Assembly: GCF_903853455.1 (NCBI RefSeq)
Contig: NZ_CAINTR010000003.1
Span: 1 to 64,000, forward strand
Length of the DNA: 64,000 nucleotides
Reading direction: 5' to 3'
Source: an uncultured Magnetospirillum sp.
GTDB lineage: Bacteria; Pseudomonadota; Alphaproteobacteria; Rhodospirillales; Magnetospirillaceae
Shown: piece by piece, positions 20,321-32,960 of the stretch
How the letters are laid out: each line of letters begins with the position of its first letter
How positions within the stretch are numbered: the stretch's first letter is position 1
Program-made: the position numbers and the translations under genes
The notes under the pieces: generated by a model
What the model was told of the DNA's origin: nothing
The model's database searches: none
What the model saw: only the letters and a program-made list of their open reading frames with translations

Positions 20321-21952
20321 TCATTCCTTCCGCCGGTGCCGCGCCAGATAGAGCGGCGTGCGGCTCTTCGGCACCTTATGGATGAAGTTGTAGCGCGCCA
20401 CGTGGTAGCTGGGATCGAAGCCGTAGAAGTTCAGCTTCATCCGCTCCAACTCCTCGGCGCGGTACTGCTCCAAGGGCTTGGCGGCTTCGTCGGCGGCCCG
20501 CGTCAGGCGCTTGGCGATCAGGCGTTCCTCCAGGGCGGGGTCGGCGGCCAGGGCCTCGGCCATCTCGTCGACCAGCCGGCGGAATTCCGGCACGCTGGCC
20601 CCGAAGCGGGAATCGATCAGTCCCAGCCGTTCGGCCTCGGCGGTGCCCATGGGCAGGCGGGCTTCCACCACCTCCTTGGCCTTGGCCTCGCCGCAGCGCC
20701 GGGGCAGCAGATAGGTCCAGTATTCCGAGCCGTAAAGGTTGCCCATGCCCTTGTAATGGGGGTTGAGCACCACGCCCTCGCGGGCCAGCACCAGATCGGC
20801 GGCGAGCGCCATGAACACCCCGCCGGCGCCGGCGTTGCCCTGCATGGCGGCGACGGTAAGGTGGCTGCCGCAGGTGATGATCGCGTGGCACAGGTCGTTC
20901 ATGGCGTTGATGTTGCGCCACGATTCCTCGGCCGGGCTGGCGGCGGCCTCGATGGTGCCGAGATGGATGCCGTTGGACCAGAAATCCGGCCCGCCCATCA
21001 GGGCGATCACCTTGGTGGGGCGCCGGGTGGCGGCGACGAAGGCGTCGCGCAGCCGCTCGCACTGGTCGGTGCTCATGGCGCCGTTGACGAAGGGGAAATG
21101 CAGGTACCCCACCCCGTGACGCTCGTCGTACCAGATGTCGTGATAGCCCGGTACTTCGGGCAAGGCTTCCAGACCGGTCAGTATACTTGCCGCCGGCAGT
21201 TTGAGGGAATGCTCCTCCTGGACCCGCAGATGGCCGATCCACACCGCGCCGTCGGTGGTGGCCCTGGCGACGGCTCCGCCGTGGCGGGCGACCAGTTCAC
21301 CGGGCTGACCGGTCAGTCCGGTGGCGGCATGGGCATCGTGCAGATAGACCGGTCGGTCTTGTATGCGGTCCAGCACGCCCGGGGTGCCGTCGGCCGAGCG
21401 GATCTTGCGCAACACCGTGGCGGTATCGTCCTTGGTCCAATGGATGGCGCGGTCGGCCTGCTTGACCGCCGGCTTCCAGGTGGAGGCGGCAGGGCGCGCG
21501 CCCTCGGTCTTCTCCAACGCTTCCAGCACGGCTTCGATGGCGGCGTCGGCCACCTCGTTGCGGTAGAGGCTGGACTTGGTGGCGGGGCGCATGGGAAAGG
21601 TCCGGCTGGCCCAGACCGGGCCGGCATCCATCTCGGCCTCGGCCTGCAACACGGTGACGCCCCAGGTCTCGCGGCCCTCCAGGATGGCCCAGTCCAGCGC
21701 CGACGGTCCCCGGTCGCCGGGCGGACCGGGATGGACCACCAGACAGAGGTGGTTCTTCCACACCGGCTCTGGGATGGCACGCTTGAGGAAGGGGGCGAGG
21801 ATCAGGTCGGGCCTGGCCAGGGCGACCGCCTCGGTGGTGACGGCGTCGTTGACGTCGAACTCCAGGGTGACGTCGTGACCGCGGCTTCCCAGCTCGACCC
21901 ACAGGCGCTGGGTCAGGCTGTTGAAGGAATGGGCCAACAGCAGGACGCGCAT
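20321..21952 (-). CDS. hypX: HypX, CO-forming [NiFe]-hydrogenase maturation protein
   Basis: 543 residues in two halves. Residues 1 to about 260 are a formyl-tetrahydrofolate hydrolase/transferase-like domain (HPGPPGDRGPSALDWAIL region). The C-terminal half is a crotonase/enoyl-CoA hydratase-like domain (LMGGPDFWSNGIHLG, MQGNAGAGGVFMALAAD). In characterised HypX the two domains convert formyl-THF to CO for the active-site iron under oxic conditions. Its presence suggests hydrogenase assembly when oxygen is available. The start overlaps the hypE stop by one base. It is the last gene of the hydrogenase locus, converging on modD. Confidence 0.93.
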   Translation of the reverse strand: MRVLLLAHSFNSLTQRLWVELGSRGHDVTLEFDVNDAVTTEAVALARPDLILAPFLKRAIPEPVWKNHLCLVVHPGPPGDRGPSALDWAILEGRETWGVTVLQAEAEMDAGPVWASRTFPMRPATKSSLYRNEVADAAIEAVLEALEKTEGARPAASTWKPAVKQADRAIHWTKDDTATVLRKIRSADGTPGVLDRIQDRPVYLHDAHAATGLTGQPGELVARHGGAVARATTDGAVWIGHLRVQEEHSLKLPAASILTGLEALPEVPGYHDIWYDERHGVGYLHFPFVNGAMSTDQCERLRDAFVAATRRPTKVIALMGGPDFWSNGIHLGTIEAAASPAEESWRNINAMNDLCHAIITCGSHLTVAAMQGNAGAGGVFMALAADLVLAREGVVLNPHYKGMGNLYGSEYWTYLLPRRCGEAKAKEVVEARLPMGTAEAERLGLIDSRFGASVPEFRRLVDEMAEALAADPALEERLIAKRLTRAADEAAKPLEQYRAEELERMKLNFYGFDPSYHVARYNFIHKVPKSRTPLYLARHRRKE

Positions 21953-23001
21953 CAGCAAATCCTCGGCAGTTGCTCGCCGGCCAGCCAGTCCACCACCCGC
22001 ATGCCGCCCATCCCTGTGCGCATCTGGACGAAGTGGTGGGCGTCGTCGCGGCACGACCCGATGCGCGCCGCGTCGGCGCCGAGCGGATGGGCGCGCATGA
22101 CCGCCAGCAGGGCTTCGGCGTCGGAATCGGCGCAGATGCAGATCAGTTTGCCCTCGTTGGCCACGTAAAGCGGGTCGAGGCCCAGCAGTTCGCAGGCGCC
22201 CAGCACCTCGGGCCGCACCGGCACCGCCGCTTCCTCGATCAGCATGCCCACCGCCGACTGCGCCGCGATCTCGTTCAGCGTCGCCGCCAGTCCGCCCCGT
22301 GTGGGGTCGCGCAGCACGTGGATGCCCGGCACGGCGGCGATCATGGCCGCCACCATGGTGTGCAGCGCCGCCGAATCCGACAGGATGGCGGTCTCGAACC
22401 CCAGCGATTCGCGCTGGCTCATCACCGCCACGCCGTGGTCGCCCATGGTGCCGGAAATCAGGATGGCGTCGCCGGCCCGGGCCCGGTCGCCGGAAATGGC
22501 GACGCCGGGCGGCACCATGCCGATGCCGGCGGTGGTGATGAAGATGCCGTCGCCCTTGCCCTTCTCCACCACCTTGGTGTCGCCGGTGACCACCGGTACC
22601 CCGGCGTCCTTGGAGGCCTTGGCCATGGAGGCGACGATGCGCGCCAGATCGGCCAGCGGGAAGCCTTCCTCGATGATGAAGCCGGCCGACAGCGACAGGG
22701 GAACCGCGCCCGCCATGGCGACGTCGTTGACGGTGCCGTGCACCGCCAGGCTGCCGATGTCGCCGCCGGGAAAGAACAGCGGGCTGATGACATAGCCGTC
22801 GGTGGTCATCACCATGCGCCCGGCCGGCACGTCGAAGGCGGCCTGGTCGTTGCGCTGGTTCAAGGCCTCGTTGTCGAAGGCCTTGATGAACAGCTCTTCC
22901 ACCAACTGAGCCATGGCGCGACCGCCGCCGCCATGGGTGAGATCGACTCTCCCGTTGGCGATGTCGAGCGGGCGGGGATGGGCGCGGCGGGGCAGGGTCA
23001 T
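21952..23001 (-). CDS. hypE: HypE, carbamoyl dehydratase of [NiFe]-hydrogenase maturation
   Basis: 349 residues of the PurM/AIR-synthase-like fold. LTHGGGGRAM, GTVNDVAMAGA, TGDTKVV and HVLRDPTRGGLA are family motifs. The chain ends in PRIC, the conserved terminal Cys that receives the carbamoyl group from HypF and is dehydrated to a thiocyanate for cyanide delivery to iron. Full length. Its start lies 2 nt after the stop of the DUF2442 gene, so it is coupled to that inserted gene rather than directly to hypD. Confidence 0.96.
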   Translation of the reverse strand: MTLPRRAHPRPLDIANGRVDLTHGGGGRAMAQLVEELFIKAFDNEALNQRNDQAAFDVPAGRMVMTTDGYVISPLFFPGGDIGSLAVHGTVNDVAMAGAVPLSLSAGFIIEEGFPLADLARIVASMAKASKDAGVPVVTGDTKVVEKGKGDGIFITTAGIGMVPPGVAISGDRARAGDAILISGTMGDHGVAVMSQRESLGFETAILSDSAALHTMVAAMIAAVPGIHVLRDPTRGGLAATLNEIAAQSAVGMLIEEAAVPVRPEVLGACELLGLDPLYVANEGKLICICADSDAEALLAVMRAHPLGADAARIGSCRDDAHHFVQMRTGMGGMRVVDWLAGEQLPRIC

Positions 23002-23003
23002 GC

Positions 23004-23267
23004 TCAGTGCTGTCCGGGAAGGGGGGCGCCGGTGATGCGCGAATAGAGAACGTCGGGGCAGAGGTCGGCGCCGTTGGGCCAGCAGATGGTGCCGATTTCG
23101 GTGTTGACCACGACCTTGGCGAATTCAGCGGGGTCCTTGAGCGGGGCGAAGACGCCCTTGAACGACAGGAATTGGGCGAAGTCCATTTCACCCTCGGCTC
23201 CATCCCGGAAGCGAAGCCGTAGGGTGTAGTCTCCGGTTCGGGTCACGGCGACGACGTCTCTGTTCAT
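23004..23267 (-). CDS. DUF2442 protein
   Basis: 87 residues of the DUF2442 family: VVAVTRTGDYTLRLRFRDGA, GEMDFAQFL, FKGVFAPLKDPAEF and VNTEIGTICWPNGADLCPDV are the usual blocks. The biochemical function is unknown. It is paired with the DUF4160 gene 3 nt upstream, and its stop is 2 nt before the hypE start. The pair sits inside the hyp operon where hypD and hypE are normally adjacent. DUF2442/DUF4160 neighbours recur in bacteria and have a toxin-antitoxin-like look, but nothing here proves that. Confidence 0.82.
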   Translation of the reverse strand: MNRDVVAVTRTGDYTLRLRFRDGAEGEMDFAQFLSFKGVFAPLKDPAEFAKVVVNTEIGTICWPNGADLCPDVLYSRITGAPLPGQH

Positions 23268-23270
23268 GGC

Positions 23271-23531
23271 TTACTCCAGCGGCAGAATCGCCTTGAGAGG
23301 AAGGTCCTGGCAAGCCAGGGCCCAATCTTCTTCCAACTCGGCGCGATGGGCCGAAGCCCATTCTATCACAAGCCCCATGGCCTTTGGCGGCAGGCGTCCA
23401 GTCAGACAGGCCAAGTCGAGAATGCTTATGACGGCTTCGTGCTCGCCGTAGCGGACGTGAAAATGCGGCGGAGCGTGATCATCGTAATACATGCGAATGA
23501 TCATCCCCAGGAACCGCGAAATCTCAGGCAT
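23271..23531 (-). CDS. DUF4160 protein
   Basis: 86 residues from the ATG at 23531. The signature is MPEISRFLGMIIRMYYDDH-x(3)-HFHVRYGEH, with the HxH of DUF4160, followed by WASAHRAELEEDWA. A longer in-frame start 33 nt upstream lies deeper in hypD and would add non-family residues. The first 8 bases overlap the end of hypD. Function unknown; encoded as a pair with DUF2442. Base composition appears less GC-biased than the flanking hyp genes, consistent with later acquisition. Confidence 0.8.
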   Translation of the reverse strand: MPEISRFLGMIIRMYYDDHAPPHFHVRYGEHEAVISILDLACLTGRLPPKAMGLVIEWASAHRAELEEDWALACQDLPLKAILPLE

Positions 23532-24666
23532 CGGCCTTCTTCCCCACATCCCTAAACCGTCCATAGGTCCAGTGGGCGGCGCAGGCGCCTTCGGCCGAGA
23601 CCATGCACGACCCCATGGGGTTCTCCGGGGTGCAGACGGTGCCGAACAGCTTGCAGTCGACCGGCTTCTTGACGCCGCGAAGGATGGCGCCGCATTCGCA
23701 GGCCTTGTTGTCGGGCGGCGAGTCCTGGGGCACGTCCCAGCGGCGCTCGGCGTCCCAGGCGGCGTAGGGCTCCTTCAGCCGCAGCGCCGAATAGGGCACC
23801 AGACCCAGGCCCCGCCACTCGAAGGCGCGGCGCAGCTCGAACATCTCGGCCACCAGCGCCTTGGCCTTTTCGTTGCCGTCGCGGGTGACGGCGCGGGAGA
23901 ACTCGTTCTCCACCTCGAAGCGGCCGTCGTTGATCTGGCGCACCAGCATGCGCACCGCCTGCATCACGTCCAGCGGCTCGAAGCCGGCGATCACCACCGG
24001 GCGCTGGTACTCCTCGGCGAAATACTCGTAGGGGCGCGAGCCGATGATGGTGGAGACATGGGCGGGGCCGATGAAGGCGTCGATGGTGACGGTTCCCAAC
24101 TGCCGCACTTCCGGGCTGTCGAGGATCTGGGCGATGGCGGACGGTGTCAGCACGTGGTTGCAGAACACGCTGAAATTCCCGAGGTTCAGCGCTTGCGCCT
24201 GTTTGATCGCCACGGCGGTGGGCGGCGTGGTGGTCTCGAAGCCGATGGCGAAGAACACCACCTGGCGCTCGGGGTGGGCCTGGGCCAGCTTGAGGGCGTC
24301 CAGGGTGGAATAGACCATGCGGATGTCGCAGCCCTCGGCCTTGGCTTTCAGCAGCGACAGCCGCTGGGAGCCCGGCACGCGCAGCATGTCGCCATAGGTG
24401 CACAGCGTCACGCCGTCTTGGCGCGCCAGCCAGATGGCGGCGTCGATGCGCCCCACCGGCAGCACGCAGACCGGACAGCCGGGGCCGTGGATCATGCGCA
24501 CATTGGCCGGCAGCAGGTCCTCCAGCCCATAGCGCGAGATGGCGTGGGTGTGGCCGCCGCAGAATTCCATGATGTGGTAGGCGCGCGCCGGATCGGCCTC
24601 GGCGGCGATGGTCCGGGCGATACCTTGGGCGACGGCGCCGTCGCGAAATTCGTCGATATACTTCAC
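23524..24666 (-). CDS. hypD: HypD, Fe-S scaffold for Fe(CN)2CO assembly
   Basis: 380 residues from a GTG at 24666 that overlaps the hypC stop (GTGA). The conserved Cys motifs are present: EFCGGHTHAISRYG, GPGCPVCVLPVGRID, then the C-terminal [4Fe-4S] region with CECG, CKLFGTVCTPENPMGSCMVS and EGACAAHW. HypD with HypC carries the iron while cyanide and CO are added. Length and domain order are normal. Its end overlaps the inserted DUF4160 gene by 8 nt. Confidence 0.96.
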   Translation of the reverse strand: MKYIDEFRDGAVAQGIARTIAAEADPARAYHIMEFCGGHTHAISRYGLEDLLPANVRMIHGPGCPVCVLPVGRIDAAIWLARQDGVTLCTYGDMLRVPGSQRLSLLKAKAEGCDIRMVYSTLDALKLAQAHPERQVVFFAIGFETTTPPTAVAIKQAQALNLGNFSVFCNHVLTPSAIAQILDSPEVRQLGTVTIDAFIGPAHVSTIIGSRPYEYFAEEYQRPVVIAGFEPLDVMQAVRMLVRQINDGRFEVENEFSRAVTRDGNEKAKALVAEMFELRRAFEWRGLGLVPYSALRLKEPYAAWDAERRWDVPQDSPPDNKACECGAILRGVKKPVDCKLFGTVCTPENPMGSCMVSAEGACAAHWTYGRFRDVGKKADA

Positions 24667-24896
24667 GCCGGCTCCGCCTCGAACTGCTCCAGCTCCTCGA
24701 ACAGCGCCAGGGTCCGGGCCGCCTCCTCGGGGTCGATCTTGGACAGGGCGTAGCCCACATGGATGATGACGTAGTCGCCCACCGCCACGTCGGAGACCAG
24801 CGCCAGCGACACCGTCTTGGCGATGCCGCCCAGATTGACCTTGGCGGAATCGTCGGGCAGCAACTCGGTCACCAGGGCGGGCAGGGCAAGGCACAT
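24663..24896 (-). CDS. hypC: HypC, hydrogenase maturation chaperone
   Basis: 77 residues beginning MCLALPALV. After Met removal the N-terminal Cys2 is the essential residue contacting HypD and the large-subunit precursor. AGAGGA lies nine bases before the ATG at 24896. The beta-barrel core is VSDVAVGDYVIIHVGYALS and the C-terminus is acidic and helical. A longer in-frame start would destroy the MC start that defines the family and would read through the REP-like element. Overlaps hypD by 4 nt. Confidence 0.95.
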   Translation of the reverse strand: MCLALPALVTELLPDDSAKVNLGGIAKTVSLALVSDVAVGDYVIIHVGYALSKIDPEEAARTLALFEELEQFEAEPA

Positions 24897-25038: not shown

Positions 25039-26136
25039 TCAATCTTCGCTCAGGCCGGCGATCCACGCCTGCCCCAGACTTAAACCGGCATCGCCGGGCG
25101 AGACCCGGATGGCGGTCAGGGGGGTAAGGCCCCGTTGCCGCAGCCGCTCCACCAGCCCGGTGGTCAGCACCCGGTTGAGGAAGCAGCCTCCGCCCAGAGT
25201 TACCGTCCCGACTCCCGTGGTCTCCGCCGCCTCCGCCGCCCATTGGGCCAGCGCCGCGATCAGGGTTCCATGGAACAGGTTGGCACCTTTCGCCCTGTCG
25301 GTGCAAGACGACAGCCGCTCCAGCAGCGGAGCCAAATCGAGCACGCCGTCGGCGAGGGTCCAGCCGGCCGGGTCGCATTGGGGAGCGGTGGCCAGGGCTT
25401 CCAGCGCCATGGGGGCCTGGCCCTCGAACGCCGCGACGAGATGCAGCCCCAGCAACCCGCAGGCGGCGTCGAACAGCCGGCCGGCGCTGGAGGTGGGGGG
25501 CGAGTTCAACCCTTTGTCCAGCACTTGGCCCAACAACGCGGCGGCGGGGATGGCGGCGAAGCGGCTGGCGATCTCACCACCCCGCCCCAGCCGGTGCAGC
25601 ACAGCAGCCGCCATGCGCCAGGGCTCGCGGGCGGCGACGTCGCCGCCGGGCTGGGCCAGCAGGGCGAGATGCCCCAGCCGACGATAGCGGGGGCCGTCGG
25701 CCAGCAGCAGTTCGCCGCCCCAGGACTGGTTGCCGGGGCCGAGGCCATACCCGTCCAGCGACAGGGCGACCACCGGCCCGTCATGGCCATGCTCGGCGGC
25801 GATGGCGGCGGCATGGGCGTGGTGGTGCTGCACCGCCACCTGGGGCAGGTCGAGGCTCTGGGCGTAGCGGGTGGAGTGGAAATCGGGATGAAGGTCGTGG
25901 GCGACCCGTAGCGGCCGCACCCCCAGCTCCGCCACCATCGCCTCCACCGAGGCCTCGAAGGCGGCGATGGCGTCGGGGGTGCCGAGATCGCCGTGGATCG
26001 CCGAGACGAAGGCCTCCGCTCCCCGGGTGACGCAGACGGTGTTCTTGAGGAACGGCCCCACCGCCAGCACCGAGGGCACGGCGCGGGGCAGGGGAATGAC
26101 GGAGGCGATGGCGGTCATGGGAGGAGTTGCCGGCAT
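25039..26136 (-). CDS. hypF: HypF, C-terminal carbamoyltransferase part only
   Basis: About 365 residues if the ATG at 26136 is used (ATG at 26118 is the alternative; neither has a good Shine-Dalgarno). What is present is the Kae1/TobZ-like C-terminal domain: HDLHPDFHSTRYAQSL, VQHHHAHAAAIAAEHG, LSLDGYGLGPGNQSWGGE, SSAGRLFDAACGLLGL and VTLGGGCFLNRVLTTGL. Full-length HypF (about 750 residues) also has an acylphosphatase domain, zinc fingers and a YrdC-like domain; all are absent here. This half could still transfer carbamoyl groups to HypE if carbamoyl-adenylate is made by another protein. Rightward genes abut its 5' end, consistent with a rearrangement that removed the N-terminal half. Confidence 0.85.
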   Translation of the reverse strand: MPATPPMTAIASVIPLPRAVPSVLAVGPFLKNTVCVTRGAEAFVSAIHGDLGTPDAIAAFEASVEAMVAELGVRPLRVAHDLHPDFHSTRYAQSLDLPQVAVQHHHAHAAAIAAEHGHDGPVVALSLDGYGLGPGNQSWGGELLLADGPRYRRLGHLALLAQPGGDVAAREPWRMAAAVLHRLGRGGEIASRFAAIPAAALLGQVLDKGLNSPPTSSAGRLFDAACGLLGLHLVAAFEGQAPMALEALATAPQCDPAGWTLADGVLDLAPLLERLSSCTDRAKGANLFHGTLIAALAQWAAEAAETTGVGTVTLGGGCFLNRVLTTGLVERLRQRGLTPLTAIRVSPGDAGLSLGQAWIAGLSED

Positions 26137-26194
26137 GTTGCAATCATGGCAATAGGGTGCCAATCTCTGGTGGTTGAACGCCGGAGGGCATGGA

Positions 26195-26419
26195 ATGGGC
26201 GCGATCGATCTCGAGACGCGGATTGCGCATCTGGAGCAAGCACTTCTAAAGATCTGTGCGGCAACCATGGATCTTGTTGTCGTAGTCGCCGATGAGCCTC
26301 CGAAGGGGGGGCTTTATAAGCCGACGCGGGAACAGAAAGGTGTAGCCATGGCAAAGGCCGTCGATTATGTCCGCGAGGCTGCCGAAATCGTGAGTGGTGA
26401 ACATGCCCCCCGAAAATGA
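26195..26419 (+). CDS. Hypothetical small protein between hypF and hypB
   Basis: 74 residues from the ATG at 26195, with GGAGGG six bases upstream. It is a predominantly helical, charged protein (MGAIDLETRIAHLEQALLKI ... YVREAAEIVSGE) without a signal peptide or membrane segment. I do not recognise a family. It is read opposite to the hydrogenase operon and overlaps the next rightward gene by 17 nt. Codons such as GTT, GTA, CTA and AAA are commoner than in the neighbours, suggesting foreign origin. Confidence 0.55.
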   Translation: MGAIDLETRIAHLEQALLKICAATMDLVVVVADEPPKGGLYKPTREQKGVAMAKAVDYVREAAEIVSGEHAPRK

Positions 26420-26741
26420 CAACGTGGATTACCGCCGCATGGAAGGCTGGCTCGACAGTCAAGCCATGCGAGAGCGGCATTCCGGCGGCGGCCCGCCCCA
26501 TGGCGGTGGTGACGACCTCAGTCATCGGGTCGCGGCGCTGGAAGGCGACGTCAAGGAGATCAAGGCCGACTTGAAGGGGGTGGTCAAGGATCTGGCTTCG
26601 GTCAAGGAGCGTCTGGCCGGCATCGAGGGCCGTCTGTCCAACCTGCCGACCACCTTTCAGATGCTGACCTGGTTCCTCGGCGTTTCCCTCGGTCTGGTGG
26701 GGGTGGTGTTCACCATTGCCCGGACGGTGGGTGCTCATTAG
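26403..26741 (+). CDS. Small coiled-coil membrane protein (XhlA-like layout)
   Basis: 112 residues from the ATG at 26403. A Gly/His-rich N-terminal segment ([11 protein letters not shown]) is followed by a heptad-patterned coiled coil ([20 protein letters not shown] ... RLAGIEGRL, about 43-80) and one C-terminal transmembrane helix (about 86-108). This coiled coil-plus-tail-helix plan resembles XhlA-type proteins of phage lysis cassettes, but no lysis genes are present and the match is architectural only. Rightward, overlapping the upstream small gene, and ending in a 4-nt convergent overlap with the hypB stop. Confidence 0.62.
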
Positions 26742-27634
26742 CCGACCTTGACCCGTGCTGCCGCCGCCCGCCGCCGCCCTTCGGCGATCCAGGCCAGCCA
26801 CTCGTCGAAGCCCTCGCCGCTGCGGGCCGACAGTTTCAGCACCACGATGTCGGGATTGACCCTGCGCGCGAAGGCGATGCAGCGCTCCACGTCGAAATCG
26901 CAATAGGGCAGCAGGTCGATCTTGTTGAGGATCATCATGCCGGCGGCGTGGAACATGTCGGGGTATTTGAGCGGCTTGTCCTCGCCCTCGGTCACCGACA
27001 GGATCGCCACCTTGTAGGCCTCGCCCAGGTCGAAGGCGGCGGGGCAGACCAGATTGCCCACATTCTCGATGAACAGCACCGAGTCGTCGGCGGGGGCAAG
27101 GCGCTCGATGGCGCTTTCCACCATATGGGCGTCGAGATGGCAGCCCTTGCCGGTGTTGACCTGAAGCGCGGGAATGCCGGTGGCGCGGATGCGGTCGGCG
27201 TCGAAGCTGGTCTGCTGGTCGCCCTCGATCACCGCCAGCGGGAACTTGGCCTTCAGCGCCTCGGCGGTGCGGCACAGCAGGGTGGTTTTCCCGGAGCCGG
27301 GGCTGGAGACCAGATTGAGGGCGAAGACGCCGTGCCGAGCCAGCCAGGCCCGGTTGCGGCCGGCGAAGTCGTTGTTGTGGCCGAGGATGTCCTGTTCGAT
27401 CTGGACGATGCGCGACTGGCTGAGCCCCGGCACATGGACGCCGGCGATGCCCTGGCCGTAATGGATGTGGCCGTGGTCGTGATCATGGGGGTGGGAATGG
27501 TCGTGATCGTGGGAATGGCCATGGTCGTGGGAGTGATCGTGCCCATGGTCATGATCATGGGAGTGGGGATGGATATGGCCCTCGACCTTGGCCCCCTCCA
27601 CTTTGGCATCGCCGCAACCGCAGACCGTGCACAT
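26738..27634 (-). CDS. hypB: HypB, nickel-binding GTPase
   Basis: 298 residues. The N-terminus MCTVCGCGD holds the high-affinity Ni motif (CxxCGC). It is followed by a remarkable His tract in which every even residue from 20 to 58 is His (20 His, alternating with D, G, S, P or I). The GTPase domain has P-loop SPGSGKTT (111-118), [10 protein letters not shown] with the metal-binding Cys, and NKIDLLPY. HypB delivers Ni to the large subunit with HypA; His-rich forms also store Ni. The start overlaps the hypA stop by one base. Downstream the operon is interrupted by two rightward genes. Confidence 0.96.
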
Positions 27635-27978
27635 CACTCCACCTCCAATTCCTTGATCCGCATCTCCTCGCCGGTGGTGACCGCCAGCTTGGCTCCGCCG
27701 CATTGGGGGCAGAGGTCGATACGCGACGCGACGACGACGGAACCCGAGCAATCCATGCACCAAGCGGTGCCGGGAATCCGGATGATTTCCAGCCTTGCGC
27801 CCTCGGTCAGCGGGCTGCCCTTGGCGACGGCGCCGAAACAGAATTCCATGCTTTCCGGCACCACGGTGGACAATTCGCCGATCTCCAGCCAGATCGTCTT
27901 GACCCGGGTAAAGCCATGGGTCGCCGCCTGATCCTCCAGGATCCGCACCACGCCTTCGGTCAGCGACATCTCATGCAT
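27634..27978 (-). CDS. hypA: HypA, nickel chaperone
   Basis: 114 residues starting [11 protein letters not shown]. His2 is the conserved Ni ligand and so fixes the start. A structural Zn site is formed by two CxxC motifs (WCMDC and LCPQC, about residues 73-76 and 90-93). Works with HypB in Ni insertion. It overlaps the hupK stop by 8 nt and hypB by 1 nt. Confidence 0.95.
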
Positions 27979-29143
27979 GGTCCAGAACCTCGATACGGCA
28001 GGCGACGCAAGGGTCGAGCGCGGCGACCAGCAGGCGGGCCCGCCAGTCCAGGTCGGGGCCGGCCTCGGCGCCCAGCAGGCCGGCGCGCAGCGGTCCTTCG
28101 GGGTGGAAGTTCCACTCGGTCGGCGCCAGGATCTGATAGCGGCTCACCACACCCTCCTCGATCTCCACCCGGTGGGCCAGCAGGCCGCGGGCGGCGTCGA
28201 CCATGCCCAGGCCGCTGCCGCTGCCCGAGGGCTCGGCGGCCGTGCCGGAATCGTCGCACAAATCCTGCACCAAATCCTCCAGTTCCCGCAATGCCTCGAC
28301 GATCTCGACCAGACGGGCGAGTAGGCGGGGCGCGAGGCCGGTGCCGTGCCGGGTCATCAGGTCGGCGACCAGGGGATGAGCGCTCTGACGCGACAAGGCG
28401 TTGGTCTCCAACACCTGTCCGCCGCTGTCGGGGCGGGCGACATAGGCGCCGGACGCGTCGGCGGTCAGGCGGGACTCCAGGTCGCGCGGTCCGGCATCCG
28501 GCATCAGATGGGGGGCCGACCTCCCGAATCCCGCCAGGTCGCTCCGGCCGACGCGGTCGAGCAGGCGGGCGGCGACGCCCTCGCCCCGCCGCATCCAGGC
28601 TTGGAGGGCCGCCGGGTCCTCGGCCCAGTCCTCCGGGCTGCCGTCGAACAGATGGGCCGCCAGAGTGGTCATCAGCCGCATCTGCTCGATCAGGGCGCCA
28701 TGGTCGATGGTCAGACGGCCGCCGCCGGGCCGCGCCCAGTCGCCATGGGGATAAAGCGCCCGCTTGGCGGCGGTGACCATGGGGCGCAGCGGCTTGATGC
28801 TGGCCAGATCCGGCGGTTCGTCCAGCAGCGCCGGCCAGTCGCGCAGGATGCCCTGGGCGTGCTCGGTCACGCTCTCCACCCGCAGCAGGACGCGCCGCGC
28901 CATGCGTTGGGCCGGCGACGGAACCAGTCCCAGCGCCGCTTCCATGGCGGCAATGCCGGCCAGCGCCTGGGCGGTGCCGCACAGGGCATAGACGGTGGGC
29001 AGGATGGTGGCGACTTGGGGTGGGGTGCGGCCGGCCAGCAGGCGCGACGCCTGCACCAGTCGGGTCGAACGGATCTGGACCTCGGCGACGGCGCCGTCGG
29101 CGACGTGCAGCGCCACGGACAGGCCGGATTCCAGGTGGCTCAT
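27971..29143 (-). CDS. hupK: HupK-type hydrogenase assembly protein
   Basis: 390 residues, related to a degenerate [NiFe]-hydrogenase large subunit: it ends [15 protein letters not shown], echoing the large-subunit DPCxxC motif, but lacks the N-terminal RxCGxC. HupK proteins are proposed scaffolds during Fe(CN)2CO transfer to the large subunit under oxic conditions. It starts with a one-base overlap on hupF and ends overlapping hypA by 8 nt. Together with HupF and HypX it points to a hydrogenase assembled in the presence of oxygen. Confidence 0.85.
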   Translation of the reverse strand: MSHLESGLSVALHVADGAVAEVQIRSTRLVQASRLLAGRTPPQVATILPTVYALCGTAQALAGIAAMEAALGLVPSPAQRMARRVLLRVESVTEHAQGILRDWPALLDEPPDLASIKPLRPMVTAAKRALYPHGDWARPGGGRLTIDHGALIEQMRLMTTLAAHLFDGSPEDWAEDPAALQAWMRRGEGVAARLLDRVGRSDLAGFGRSAPHLMPDAGPRDLESRLTADASGAYVARPDSGGQVLETNALSRQSAHPLVADLMTRHGTGLAPRLLARLVEIVEALRELEDLVQDLCDDSGTAAEPSGSGSGLGMVDAARGLLAHRVEIEEGVVSRYQILAPTEWNFHPEGPLRAGLLGAEAGPDLDWRARLLVAALDPCVACRIEVLDHA

Positions 29144-29376
29144 CAAGCCAGACCGCTGGCCAGCACGTCCGCCAGATAGGCCAGCGCCTCGGCGGCGACG
29201 TCCGGCTCGACCTTCTCGGCGGCGAAGTTGCCGCCGGCCCCCAGGATCACGTAGTCGCCCACCGCCACCTCGTCCCCCAGCAGCATCAGGCTGGTGGTGC
29301 GGAGCGTGCCGAACGCCTCGACGGTGGCGACGCCCTGGTCGATGGCGATGATGCGGGACGGCACCGCCATGCACAT
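29143..29376 (-). CDS. hupF: HupF, HypC-like chaperone
   Basis: 77 residues with the MCMAVPSRI start typical of HypC/HupF, a small beta-barrel (GDEVAVGDYVILGAGGNFA) and a helical tail. Second HypC-family gene in this locus. The copy next to hupD and hupK is normally HupF, which protects the large-subunit precursor, whereas the copy next to hypD is HypC. The start is 3 nt after the hupD stop. Confidence 0.88.
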   Translation of the reverse strand: MCMAVPSRIIAIDQGVATVEAFGTLRTTSLMLLGDEVAVGDYVILGAGGNFAAEKVEPDVAAEALAYLADVLASGLA

Positions 29377-29379
29377 GAT

Positions 29380-29862
29380 TCAGGCGGCCTTGGGCCGGGG
29401 CGTGATCCCCAGCGCGGTCAACTCCGCCACCAGGGCGGCCACCACGTCGGGCAGCCGCGCCGCGATGTCGGGCGACAGTTCCATGGCGGTGGCGAAGCTC
29501 TTGGGCTCGACCCCGATCAGGACGATGTTCTTGGGCATCAGGCCGTGGAAGTTCAGCGTCCCCAGCATGTCGGAAATGCCCACCTGATGCGGCGAGATCT
29601 TGGTCTTGAAGAAGGCGGGAATCTGGTCGCCCGCCAGCCGGGTGATGGTGCCGGGCTCCTGCTTGGAGCGCATGGCGTCGGCGATCAGCAGATGGTCGGC
29701 GCCGGAGACCTGATCCAGGCAATCCATGCCCGAGGTGCCGCCGTCGATGACCTCGACCTCGTCCCCCAGGTCGTAGCGGGCGGCAAGCTCGTTGACCGCG
29801 TAGACGCCCACACCTTCATCGGTGAGCAGGATGTTGCCGACGCCCAGGATCACCACACGCAT
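29380..29862 (-). CDS. hupD: [NiFe]-hydrogenase maturation endopeptidase
   Basis: 160 residues of the HyaD/HybD/HupD family. It opens VVILGVGNILLTDEGVGVYA with the Glu ligand (DEGVG), followed by VIDGGTSGMDCLD containing the conserved Asp of the metal site, and the HQVGISDML segment with the His ligand. It clips the C-terminal peptide of HybC after Ni insertion. It lies downstream of hybC across a 175-bp gap that contains a large inverted-repeat element. Confidence 0.93.
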   Translation of the reverse strand: MRVVILGVGNILLTDEGVGVYAVNELAARYDLGDEVEVIDGGTSGMDCLDQVSGADHLLIADAMRSKQEPGTITRLAGDQIPAFFKTKISPHQVGISDMLGTLNFHGLMPKNIVLIGVEPKSFATAMELSPDIAARLPDVVAALVAELTALGITPRPKAA

Positions 29863-30037: not shown

Positions 30038-31741
30038 CTACAGAGCCTTGACCTGAACGACTTCCTTGTTGTCCTCGACCACATGCACCGCGCAGGCGAG
30101 GCAGGGATCGAAGGAGTGGATGGTGCGCAGGACCTCCAGCGGCTGTTCGGCGTCGGCGATGGGGTTGTCCAGCAGCGACGCCTCGTAGGGGCCGATCTTG
30201 TCGTTCTCGTCACGCGGCCCGGCGTTCCAGGTGCTGGGGACCACGCACTGGTAGTTGGCAATCTTGCCGTCGCGGATGACCGTCCAGTGGGACAGCAGGC
30301 CGCGCGGCGCCTCGTGGAAGCCGTAACCCATGATCTCGCCCTTGGGGAAGGTGGGCTTGTTGAAGGTCGCCACGTCGCCCTTGCCGATATTGTCGATCAG
30401 GGCCTGCCAGTTTTGCTGCATGACATCCTGCATCACGCCACAGCGGACGGCGCGGGCGGCATGACGGCCGATGGTGGAGTGCAGCGCCGCCAGCGGGATC
30501 TTCGATCCCAACAGCGAGGACGCGGTGTCCAGCACCTGGGTGGCGTAGGTGATGGTCGGCTTGTGACCGGCGGCGACGCCGCACAGCACGTTGGCCAACG
30601 GTCCCACCTGGGCGCGCTCGCCGTAGAAGGTGGGGGCCTTCAGCCAGGAATACTTGCCGTCATCCTGGAAGTCGGTGTAGTTCGGCGTGGTCTCGCCCTT
30701 GTAGGGATGCAGCGGACCCGGCTTGGAATAGTTGTACCAGGCGTGCTTGACGCTTTCCTCGACGCCATCGCGCAGATAGGCGTCGCCGAAGGCGGTGATG
30801 GGCTTGTACTTGGCGATGTCGCCGCCGGGGATGTAGCCGCCGGGGGTCAGGAACTGGGTGCCCTTGCTGTCCATGGGGAAGTCGGGGGCGGACAGGTAGT
30901 TCATGACGCCGGCGCCGTACTTGGTCCATTCGGCGTAGAAGGCGCCGATGGCGGCGATGTCCACCAGATAGACCTTGCGGATGAACTCACCCAGCGCGTC
31001 CATGTGCGGCTTGAGGGCCAGCAGACGCTCGACCGTCAGCACCGACTGGCTGTCGGTGGCGATGGGGTTGGAGACGCCGCCCACCGCCACGTTCTGGATG
31101 TGCGGGCTCTTGGATCCCAGGATGGTGACGATCTTATTGGCGTGGCGCTGGGCTTCCAGCGCCTGGAGGTAGTGGGTCACCGCCAGCAGGTTGACTTCCG
31201 GCGACAGCTTCATGGCCGGATGGCCCCAATAGCCGTTGGTGAACGGCCCCAGCTGGCCGCTGCCGACGAAGGTCTTCAGCTTCTCCAGCGTCTGGGTCAT
31301 GACCGCCCGGCCGTTGAGCGGCCAGTCGGACAGGCTTTCCGCCAGCGCCGCCGTCTTGATCGGATCGGCCTTCAACGCGCTGACCACGTCCACCCAGTCC
31401 AGCGCCGACAGGTGGTAGAAGTGGACGATATGGTCGTGGATGGCATGGGCCGAGATGATCATGTTCCGGATGAACTGGGCGTTCACCGGGATCTCCAGGT
31501 TCAGGGCGTTTTCCACGGCGCGCACCGAGGTGATGGCGTGCACGGTGGTGCAGACGCCGCAGATGCGCTGGGTGATGGCCCAGGCGTCGCGCGGGTCGCG
31601 GCCGAGCAGGATCAGCTCGACGCCACGCCACATCTGGCCCGAGGACCAAGCCTTGGTGACCTTGCCCCCATCGACTTCGACATCGACGCGCAGATGGCCT
31701 TCAATCCGAGTGATGGGATCGATGGTGATTCTCTTGGACAC
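30038..31741 (-). CDS. hybC: [NiFe]-hydrogenase large subunit
   Basis: 567 residues from a GTG at 31741 with AAGGAG upstream. The Ni-Fe ligands are in RICGVC (Cys61, Cys64) and DPCLAC (Cys547, Cys550). The conserved His553 is followed by a 14-residue tail (VVEDNKEVVQVKAL) that the HupD protease should remove. TRIEGHLR near the N-terminus is also typical. The order small subunit-HybA-HybB-large subunit marks a Hyb-like membrane-associated uptake hydrogenase that oxidises periplasmic H2. It lacks its own Tat signal and is exported with HybO. Confidence 0.97.
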   Translation of the reverse strand: MSKRITIDPITRIEGHLRVDVEVDGGKVTKAWSSGQMWRGVELILLGRDPRDAWAITQRICGVCTTVHAITSVRAVENALNLEIPVNAQFIRNMIISAHAIHDHIVHFYHLSALDWVDVVSALKADPIKTAALAESLSDWPLNGRAVMTQTLEKLKTFVGSGQLGPFTNGYWGHPAMKLSPEVNLLAVTHYLQALEAQRHANKIVTILGSKSPHIQNVAVGGVSNPIATDSQSVLTVERLLALKPHMDALGEFIRKVYLVDIAAIGAFYAEWTKYGAGVMNYLSAPDFPMDSKGTQFLTPGGYIPGGDIAKYKPITAFGDAYLRDGVEESVKHAWYNYSKPGPLHPYKGETTPNYTDFQDDGKYSWLKAPTFYGERAQVGPLANVLCGVAAGHKPTITYATQVLDTASSLLGSKIPLAALHSTIGRHAARAVRCGVMQDVMQQNWQALIDNIGKGDVATFNKPTFPKGEIMGYGFHEAPRGLLSHWTVIRDGKIANYQCVVPSTWNAGPRDENDKIGPYEASLLDNPIADAEQPLEVLRTIHSFDPCLACAVHVVEDNKEVVQVKAL

Positions 31742-31754
31742 TGCTCAGGTCTCC

Positions 31755-32960
31755 TTACTCGGCGGCCGCGGTGGTGGAGTGGCCGGGTAGAATGGGGAAT
31801 TTCCGGACGAAAACGATGTAGGCGAGCACTTCGATGGCGATCACGCCGATGGTGACCAGCATCTCGGGCGCGCTGGGGAAGTAATGCCAGCCGGGGCCGG
31901 TGTCGTAGGCCACCAGGAAGGCGTCGATGCGGTACAGCACCGCGCCGGTCAGCATGCTGAGCGACGCCGCCAGCAGCTTGGACAGACGCCGGCGGTTGGC
32001 CGGGCTGGACAGAACCACCACCGGGTAGGCGAAGGTGGCCATCTCGATCACGAACATCACGCTCTTGATGCCCGAGGTGAACACCTGGAAGATGGCGCCC
32101 CGCCAGATCAGATCGCCGATGCGGATGATCAGGTAGGCCACCAGGATGCCCATGATGATCTTGCCGATCTTGGACAGCAGCGGCAGTTCCTCGTGGATGT
32201 CGCGCTTGAACCCCACCGCCGCCACCGTCGCCTCGACGATGACGATGGCGAAGCCCATGCAGACGGCGGTCAGCAGGAACAACAGCGGCAGCAGCGGCGT
32301 CTGCCACAGCGGATGGATCTGGTAGCCGAACACCACCAGCAGCGATCCCAGCGAGGATTGGTGCATGGTCGGCAGCAGCACGCCCAGGCCGATGAACACG
32401 AACATGACCTTGTTCAGCTTGCCCTTGAGGTCCCGCTTGCGCAGATGTTCGAGGAAGGTCGGCGAGAACTCGATCCACAGCACCACGATGTAAAGGCTGA
32501 TGCAGGCGGCGACTTCGAACATCACCGAGCCGGGCTGGGCGTAGCCGGGCCACAGGATGTGCCAGAAGTTCCAGTAGCGGCCGAGGTCGATCAGCACCGA
32601 CAGGCCGCCCAGCGAATAGCCGAACAGCGAGGCGGTCAGGGCCGGACGCACCAGATGGTGGTACTCGCCCTTGTTGAGGATGTAGACGACCAGGGCCATG
32701 GCATAGCCGCCGCAGGCGAAGCCAGTGGCGATGACCACGTCCCACACCACCCAGATGCCCCAGGGGTAGCCGTTGTTGATGTTGGTGACCGCTCCCAGGC
32801 CGTAGATGAACCGCTGGGCCAGGAAGAACATGGCGATGGCGATGAACACGCCCAGAACCAGGGTGAAGGGGCTCCACAGGCTGCCGCCGAGGGCGGTGTG
32901 CTTGGCCTTGGCCTTTTGCAGCCGGCTCGCGACCTCGCTGGGGATGGGGTGATTAACCAT
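31755..32960 (-). CDS. hybB: HybB, NrfD-family quinone-reducing membrane subunit
   Basis: 401 residues with about ten hydrophobic helices and the NrfD/HybB pattern (NNGYPWGIWVVWDVVIATGFACGGYAMAL; GRYWNFWHILWP; PTMHQSSLGSLL). It carries no haem-binding cytochrome b signature; such subunits pass electrons from the HybA Fe-S chain to the quinone pool. Overlaps hybA by 8 nt and lies 13 nt before hybC. Confidence 0.94.
   Translation of the reverse strand: MVNHPIPSEVASRLQKAKAKHTALGGSLWSPFTLVLGVFIAIAMFFLAQRFIYGLGAVTNINNGYPWGIWVVWDVVIATGFACGGYAMALVVYILNKGEYHHLVRPALTASLFGYSLGGLSVLIDLGRYWNFWHILWPGYAQPGSVMFEVAACISLYIVVLWIEFSPTFLEHLRKRDLKGKLNKVMFVFIGLGVLLPTMHQSSLGSLLVVFGYQIHPLWQTPLLPLLFLLTAVCMGFAIVIVEATVAAVGFKRDIHEELPLLSKIGKIIMGILVAYLIIRIGDLIWRGAIFQVFTSGIKSVMFVIEMATFAYPVVVLSSPANRRRLSKLLAASLSMLTGAVLYRIDAFLVAYDTGPGWHYFPSAPEMLVTIGVIAIEVLAYIVFVRKFPILPGHSTTAAAE

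Follow-up and report, generated by a model that had tools for sequence, protein, structure and literature searches.

The hyp operon of the uncultured Magnetospirillum sp. analyzed here carries a hypF gene that codes only for the Kae1-like carbamoyltransferase half of HypF. This is the only HypF found in the assembly, it is under purifying selection, and it belongs to a short form of the protein that arose at least twice and in which the same near-invariant residues were repeatedly lost. The product probably works as a stand-alone HypF of the HypF1 type, without a dedicated split partner and with a carbamoyl donor that most likely reaches it as a free metabolite; Sua5 is a candidate source of this donor, although we hold its involvement to be slightly less probable than its absence.

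Extent and domain content of the truncated hypF gene

Within the 64,000 nt stretch of DNA that was analyzed (the window), the truncated hypF gene occupies positions 25039-26136 of the minus strand. It is contained in an ORF spanning 25039-26268 and, read from position 26136, codes for 365 aa, the reading used here for residue numbering; the gene may also start at position 26118, giving a product of 359 aa, as in several relatives the start codon coincides with residue 7 of the longer reading. The only Pfam domains over cut-off in the ORF were HypF_C and HypF_C_2, and no acylphosphatase, zinc-finger or YrdC domain passed the Pfam cut-off in the chain. The equivalog model for full-length HypF, TIGR00143, aligned over its positions 385–739 of 741 and with a score of 237 bits, below its curated cut-off of 466.1, so that the product does not qualify as a full-length HypF. 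Likewise, the alignments with solved HypFs begin at chain residues 399 (3vth) and 297 (3tsp), at the start of the Kae1-like part, and the predicted fold of the truncated protein (pLDDT 92.7) had HypF 3vth as its top match in the PDB, with a TM-score of 0.90. The TsaD/Kae1 proteins belong to the same fold family; in sequence, PF00814 matches only weakly, under its cut-off (E 0.0031). The gene also resembles hypF1 of Cupriavidus necator in that its product comprises the Kae1-like half alone, within about 360–395 aa, in its location between hypB and hypC in the hyp operon, and in the retention of the Kae1-like metal-site and core residues. These comparisons confirm what a first-pass annotation of the window had proposed, that the gene encodes the carbamoyltransferase half of HypF only; as also stated there, no second hypF fragment was found in the window.

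Organization of the hyp operon

The gene order on the minus strand is hypA-hypB-hypF-hypC-hypD-hypE-hypX, adjoining [NiFe]-hydrogenase genes, which is the same order as in the hypF1 operon of C. necator (Ralstonia eutropha) H16. Upstream of hypF lie hypA (27634-27978; PF01155, TIGR00100) and hypB (26738-27634, start approximate; TIGR00073, NF007775), and downstream of it hypC (24663-24896; PF01455 and TIGR00074 matches from residue 20 of a 96-aa ORF), hypD (23524-24660, start approximate; PF01924, TIGR00075) and hypE (21952-23001; TIGR02124, 455 bits). The deduced HypE ends in PRIC, the C-terminus expected to bear the carbamoyl-accepting cysteine, and the same end occurs in all 36 truncated-type and all 50 full-type loci with a readable end, some genomes being counted twice. 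The last gene of the operon, hypX-like (20321-21958), codes for formyl-transferase and enoyl-CoA hydratase domains (Pfam); its product is 55% identical to that at the hypX position in the megaplasmid pHG1 of C. necator and, by homology to C. necator HypX, would participate in the synthesis of the CO ligand. The neighboring hydrogenase genes, also on the minus strand, code for a hydrogenase maturation protease (29380-29862; PF01750), the [NiFe]-hydrogenase large subunit (30038-31741; PF00374, 716 bits) and, beside it, an NrfD-type membrane subunit (31755-32960; PF03916).

Two small ORFs on the plus strand (26174-26419 and 26394-26741) separate hypB from hypF. Neither of them matches any HypF domain, and we discarded an N-terminal fragment of HypF hidden in this spacer; the second ORF matches phrog_6136 (E 4.7e-10). 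A similar pair of ORFs is found in the same place in genome G007, with 69% and 54% identity, and is absent from the nearest relative, G011. Only 18 bp lie between the matches for hypB and hypF in this last genome, too little space upstream of hypF to encode the 400 residues that are missing.

A short HypF as the only one found in the source genome and in most short-form genomes examined

The first-pass annotation had suggested searching the rest of the genome for a HypF piece with YrdC or acylphosphatase domains, or for a second hypF. In the source assembly (G000; 5.18 Mb in 223 contigs, 100% complete), this search retrieved a single HypF_C match, which is the truncated hypF itself, and no zf-HYPF over cut-off (best E 0.48). 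YrdC gave one match over cut-off and two weak ones under it; the former is a 335-aa housekeeping Sua5 with its C-terminal Sua5 domain, encoded in contig C14, with hypF being in contig C3. Sua5 is thus the only candidate over cut-off, and the search of this genome yielded no YrdC protein that would be a dedicated split partner. The genome also encodes one free-standing acylphosphatase, so the cell does not lack this activity. It is unlikely, but possible, that a HypF gene was missed in an assembly of 223 contigs.

A HypF match was found in 46 genomes from a first set of 60, the source genome included. We considered the form as short when no YrdC or N-terminal part was found beside HypF_C (36 genomes) and as full when such a part adjoined it (nine genomes); one genome (G050), in which the contig ends 40 bp upstream of the HypF match, was left undecided. 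No other HypF match was present in 35 of the 36 short-form genomes, with the short form also being the sole HypF in the single-contig genomes G008 and G010, and the remaining one (G049) had a second, weak match with 33% identity. Comparison of the source hypF with its relatives yielded dN/dS values of 0.21–0.37 (18 comparisons), indicating that the gene is under purifying selection. Because the short form is common, being present in 36 of the 46 HypF-bearing genomes, and because of these low dN/dS values, hypF does not look like a remnant. The possibility, raised in the first-pass annotation, that a full-length HypF elsewhere makes this copy a remnant was therefore not borne out, given the conservation of the short form and the lack of another HypF in the assembly.

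Exactly one YrdC match was detected in 33 of the 36 short-form genomes; there was none in G028 (89% complete) and G058 (88% complete), and three in G029. A dedicated stand-alone YrdC was rejected as the partner of the short HypF, as two extra copies occur in only one of the 36 genomes (G029), in a different cluster and contig from hypF. A free acylphosphatase was similarly rejected as a required partner: 33 of the 36 short-form genomes have one, as do full-HypF genomes, and it is absent from G018, G025 and G034 (100%, 91% and 92% complete, respectively).

We also scanned named genomes, retaining the best 80 loci among the matches listed, which do not amount to a census; 24 of them were truncated and 56 full, with three of the truncated loci duplicating genomes from the first set (identical rows). 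Each of the 24 genomes with a truncated locus contained a single HypF_C match and either one (13 genomes) or two (11 genomes) YrdC matches over cut-off, the latter being genomes of Nitrosomonas, Nitrotoga and Gallionella. Among the matches listed, the nearest named relatives were Phaeospirillum and Magnetospirillum. A class-wide draw, which offers only a rough upper view of the frequency of the short form, contained HypF_C in 24 of 389 genomes, mostly in long frames; those of G000 and G024 are short, G053 is broken, and the frames in G316 and G325 measure 688 and 616 aa. Matches occurred in 132 plasmid records, and six stretches from these were compared.

Repeated origin of the short form and shared loss of residues

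A tree of HypF with 130 rows, from which G053 was omitted as broken, needs three changes to the short form. These correspond to truncated lineage 1, with 50 rows of alphaproteobacterial type; lineage 2, with two rows, C. necator HypF1 and Acidovorax; and lineage 3, with 11 rows from Nitrosomonas, Nitrotoga and Gallionella. Topology tests with 62 of the 130 rows, chosen by us, rejected a single ancient truncation, with all truncated rows in one clade (p-AU 4.9e-07), as well as the union of the two large truncated lineages (p-AU 6.0e-05). Joining the C. necator pair to either of the large lineages was not rejected (p-AU 0.163 and 0.063); C. necator HypF1 and the source short form belong to separate lineages in the tree, with a p-AU of 0.063 for joining them. 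These results point to at least two truncations, and perhaps to three. The interpretation in the first-pass annotation, which saw here a local reduction of HypF, is thus partly supported: the half length stands, but the form is old, arose at least twice and was already published for C. necator HypF1.

The positions with at least 97% conservation across the full set of 130 rows include H104, H108, D128 and D349, as well as the motifs GGC and GRxFDAA. By homology, H104, H108, D128 and D349 would be metal ligands, putatively matching the columns of H133, H137, D156 and D333 from GdmN. The Kae1-like domain and this conserved core are shared with the four-domain HypFs from E. coli (3tsp), Caldanaerobacter (3vth) and Thermococcus (4g9i); in contrast with them, the source HypF is devoid of the acylphosphatase, zinc-finger and YrdC domains and has replaced H47, P346 and G350, three residues that are present in the aligned E. 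coli and Caldanaerobacter HypFs.

Shared losses were analyzed in the 60 columns with at least 97% conservation in the 67 full-length rows, after dropping three duplicate rows, and a column was considered lost when its residue was kept in less than 60% of the ungapped rows. Truncated lineages 1, 2 and 3 lost four, eight and six of these near-invariant columns, respectively, and four of them, R38, H47, P346 and G350, were lost in all three lineages, the equivalent positions in locus L098 being R414, H423, P721 and G725. By chance, and treating columns as equal, three or more shared losses occurred in 2 of 200000 draws, and four in none; the independent losses would be only two if C. necator HypF1 shares its truncation with another lineage. 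H47 is not retained in any truncated row, whereas G350 is retained in 3/47 and P346 in 1/47 and 3/11 of them; the loss of R38, the weakest of the four, is soft, with R still present in 16/47, 1/2 and 5/11 rows. The C. necator pair resembles the source HypF in this respect, with H47, P346 and G350 lost in both rows and R38 in one. In control clades made up of full-length HypFs, the numbers of lost columns were 1, 0, 1, 0, 13, 3, 0 and 0, the 13 columns, R38 among them, corresponding to the deep pair G051/G037. The conserved Asp D349 has P346 and G350 on either side of it, G350 being its direct neighbor. What was lost in common could be the surface that once faced the YrdC domain or, alternatively, could reflect a changed donor site.

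Possible sources of the carbamoyl group

The textbook route to the cyanide ligands runs from carbamoyl phosphate, through the acylphosphatase and YrdC domains of HypF, to HypE. In carbamoyltransferases of this kind, the YrdC-like domain is described as producing carbamoyl-AMP, which the Kae1-like domain then consumes; in those of the GdmN/TobZ type, transfer from carbamoyl-AMP occurs in the Kae1-like domain, where a metal is held by two His and two Asp residues (PMC9633730). The acceptor for HypF is reported to be the C-terminal cysteine of HypE (PMC9633730, PMC4506123). For the short HypF, we propose that the carbamoyl donor would reach the protein from outside the chain, as a free metabolite; Sua5, the only YrdC-fold enzyme found, could make the carbamoyl-AMP, and the short HypF, keeping the second half of the protein, would transfer the carbamoyl group to the C-terminal cysteine of HypE. 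The product known for Sua5 is threonylcarbamoyl-AMP (PMC10321239); the enzyme is not known for carbamoyl-AMP. The arrangement proposed is that of TsaD/Kae1, which uses the adenylate from a separate TsaC/Sua5 (PMC10321239) but differs in acting on tRNA and in its other partner proteins. The O-carbamoyltransferases TobZ and GdmN likewise have a Kae1-like domain and carbamoyl-AMP as donor (PMC9633730), but carry the YrdC-like domain in the same chain and act on small-molecule acceptors.

HypF1 from C. necator H16, encoded in pHG1, has 394 aa and, as here, consists of the Kae1-like half only. This truncation and the idea that HypF1 requires carbamoyl-adenylate from elsewhere were already published in PMC9100943, which also describes that, in anaerobic E. 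coli, HypF1 seemed inactive and interfered with the E. coli HypF; lowering the temperature brought a recovery, which the authors relate to oxygen. As reported in PMC5350229, HypF1 failed to complement an E. coli hypF mutant, in which production of HypF1 could not be shown, and the soluble hydrogenase is cited as needing HypF2. C. necator also possesses this full-length HypF2 (807 aa), whereas no second HypF was found in the source genome. With HypF2 present beside HypF1, there was little pressure to decide whether the short form is sufficient; the genomes found with the short form as their only HypF, some of them in a single contig, lend themselves to testing this, and the four residues lost in common offer concrete sites for mutation. 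In the open-licence literature searched, we found no description of genomes with the short form alone, of several origins for it or of the residues lost in common, and all three are new to us.

Among the alternatives, the one that fares best, although we regard it as unlikely, is that the short HypF uses another donor, such as carbamoyl phosphate directly, together with a nucleotide bound by HypF itself, with no YrdC step. It would agree with the loss of R38, H47, P346 and G350 in all truncated lineages, two of them at either side of D349, and in particular the loss of G350 could reflect a changed substrate instead of the same carbamoyl-AMP; it would also agree with the failure to find a dedicated YrdC partner and with G018, a genome that is 100% complete and shows neither acylphosphatase nor HypX. 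However, the remaining Kae1-like core is unchanged, residues that did no more than face the absent YrdC domain would be expected to be lost in the same way, and structures of relatives have carbamoyl-AMP bound in the Kae1-like domain (PMC9633730).

More doubtful is that Sua5 docks onto the short HypF, the pair working as a split full HypF, even if Sua5 is the only YrdC over cut-off in the source genome and a single YrdC exists in 33 of 36 truncated-HypF relatives. If the docking resembled the covalent arrangement, residues facing YrdC should persist, yet the truncated lineages share losses; these would speak against a Sua5 docked in the same pose if the lost residues mark that surface. Additionally, the genes for Sua5 and HypF are not near each other in the source genome, lying in different contigs.

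We consider it very improbable that hypF is a decaying remnant, with the cyanide ligands coming from an unassembled full HypF or not being made at all. The apparent inactivity of C. necator HypF1 in E. coli, the fragmented assembly and the two opposite-strand ORFs interrupting hypB-hypF would fit a remnant, but the short form is the sole HypF in most truncated-type genomes examined, single-contig ones included, its dN/dS is low, the operon is intact beside the hydrogenase genes, and the nearest relative also carries a short HypF, with no such ORFs between hypB and hypF. Finally, that the function missing from HypF is taken over by HypX, encoded next in the operon, can be practically dismissed: the operon is the same as in C. 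necator and a clear HypX is present in 27/36 truncated-HypF versus 1/9 full-HypF relatives, a contrast confounded by kinship, but nine of the 36 short-form genomes have no clear HypX, HypX is also frequent at loci with a full HypF, in Bradyrhizobium and others, and its published role is in the CO ligand (PMC9100943).

Returning to a stand-alone short HypF that receives a free donor, it is possible, and we suggest it tentatively, that the short HypFs were re-tuned more than once, dropping the intramolecular carbamoyl-AMP route for a free donor of their own, with the parallel loss of R38, H47, P346 and G350. If so, synthesis of the cyanide ligands would need neither the acylphosphatase nor the YrdC domain of HypF.

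Other features of the hyp loci

A second HypC-like protein is encoded near the hydrogenase genes (29143-29376, minus strand; PF01455), and hypE is separated from hypD by a DUF2442/DUF4160 pair (23004-23267 and 23271-23564, minus strand). Gaps of about 520–540 bp between hypE and hypD occur in the same place in G008, G010, G013 and G020. The extra YrdC proteins from G029 are encoded in locus L065 (5483-6190 and 8102-8827), in a cluster that looks biosynthetic. In six Nitrosomonas loci (L120, L127, L136, L139, L140 and L154), hypA and hypB adjoin the truncated hypF, and no hypC, hypD or hypE over 60 bits was detected in the stretch compared. Three genomes of the same genus as the source, G004, G006 and G015 (loci L057, L058 and L059), contain a full-length HypF of a different lineage and no clear HypX, which would fit a short form that was either never acquired or later displaced there.
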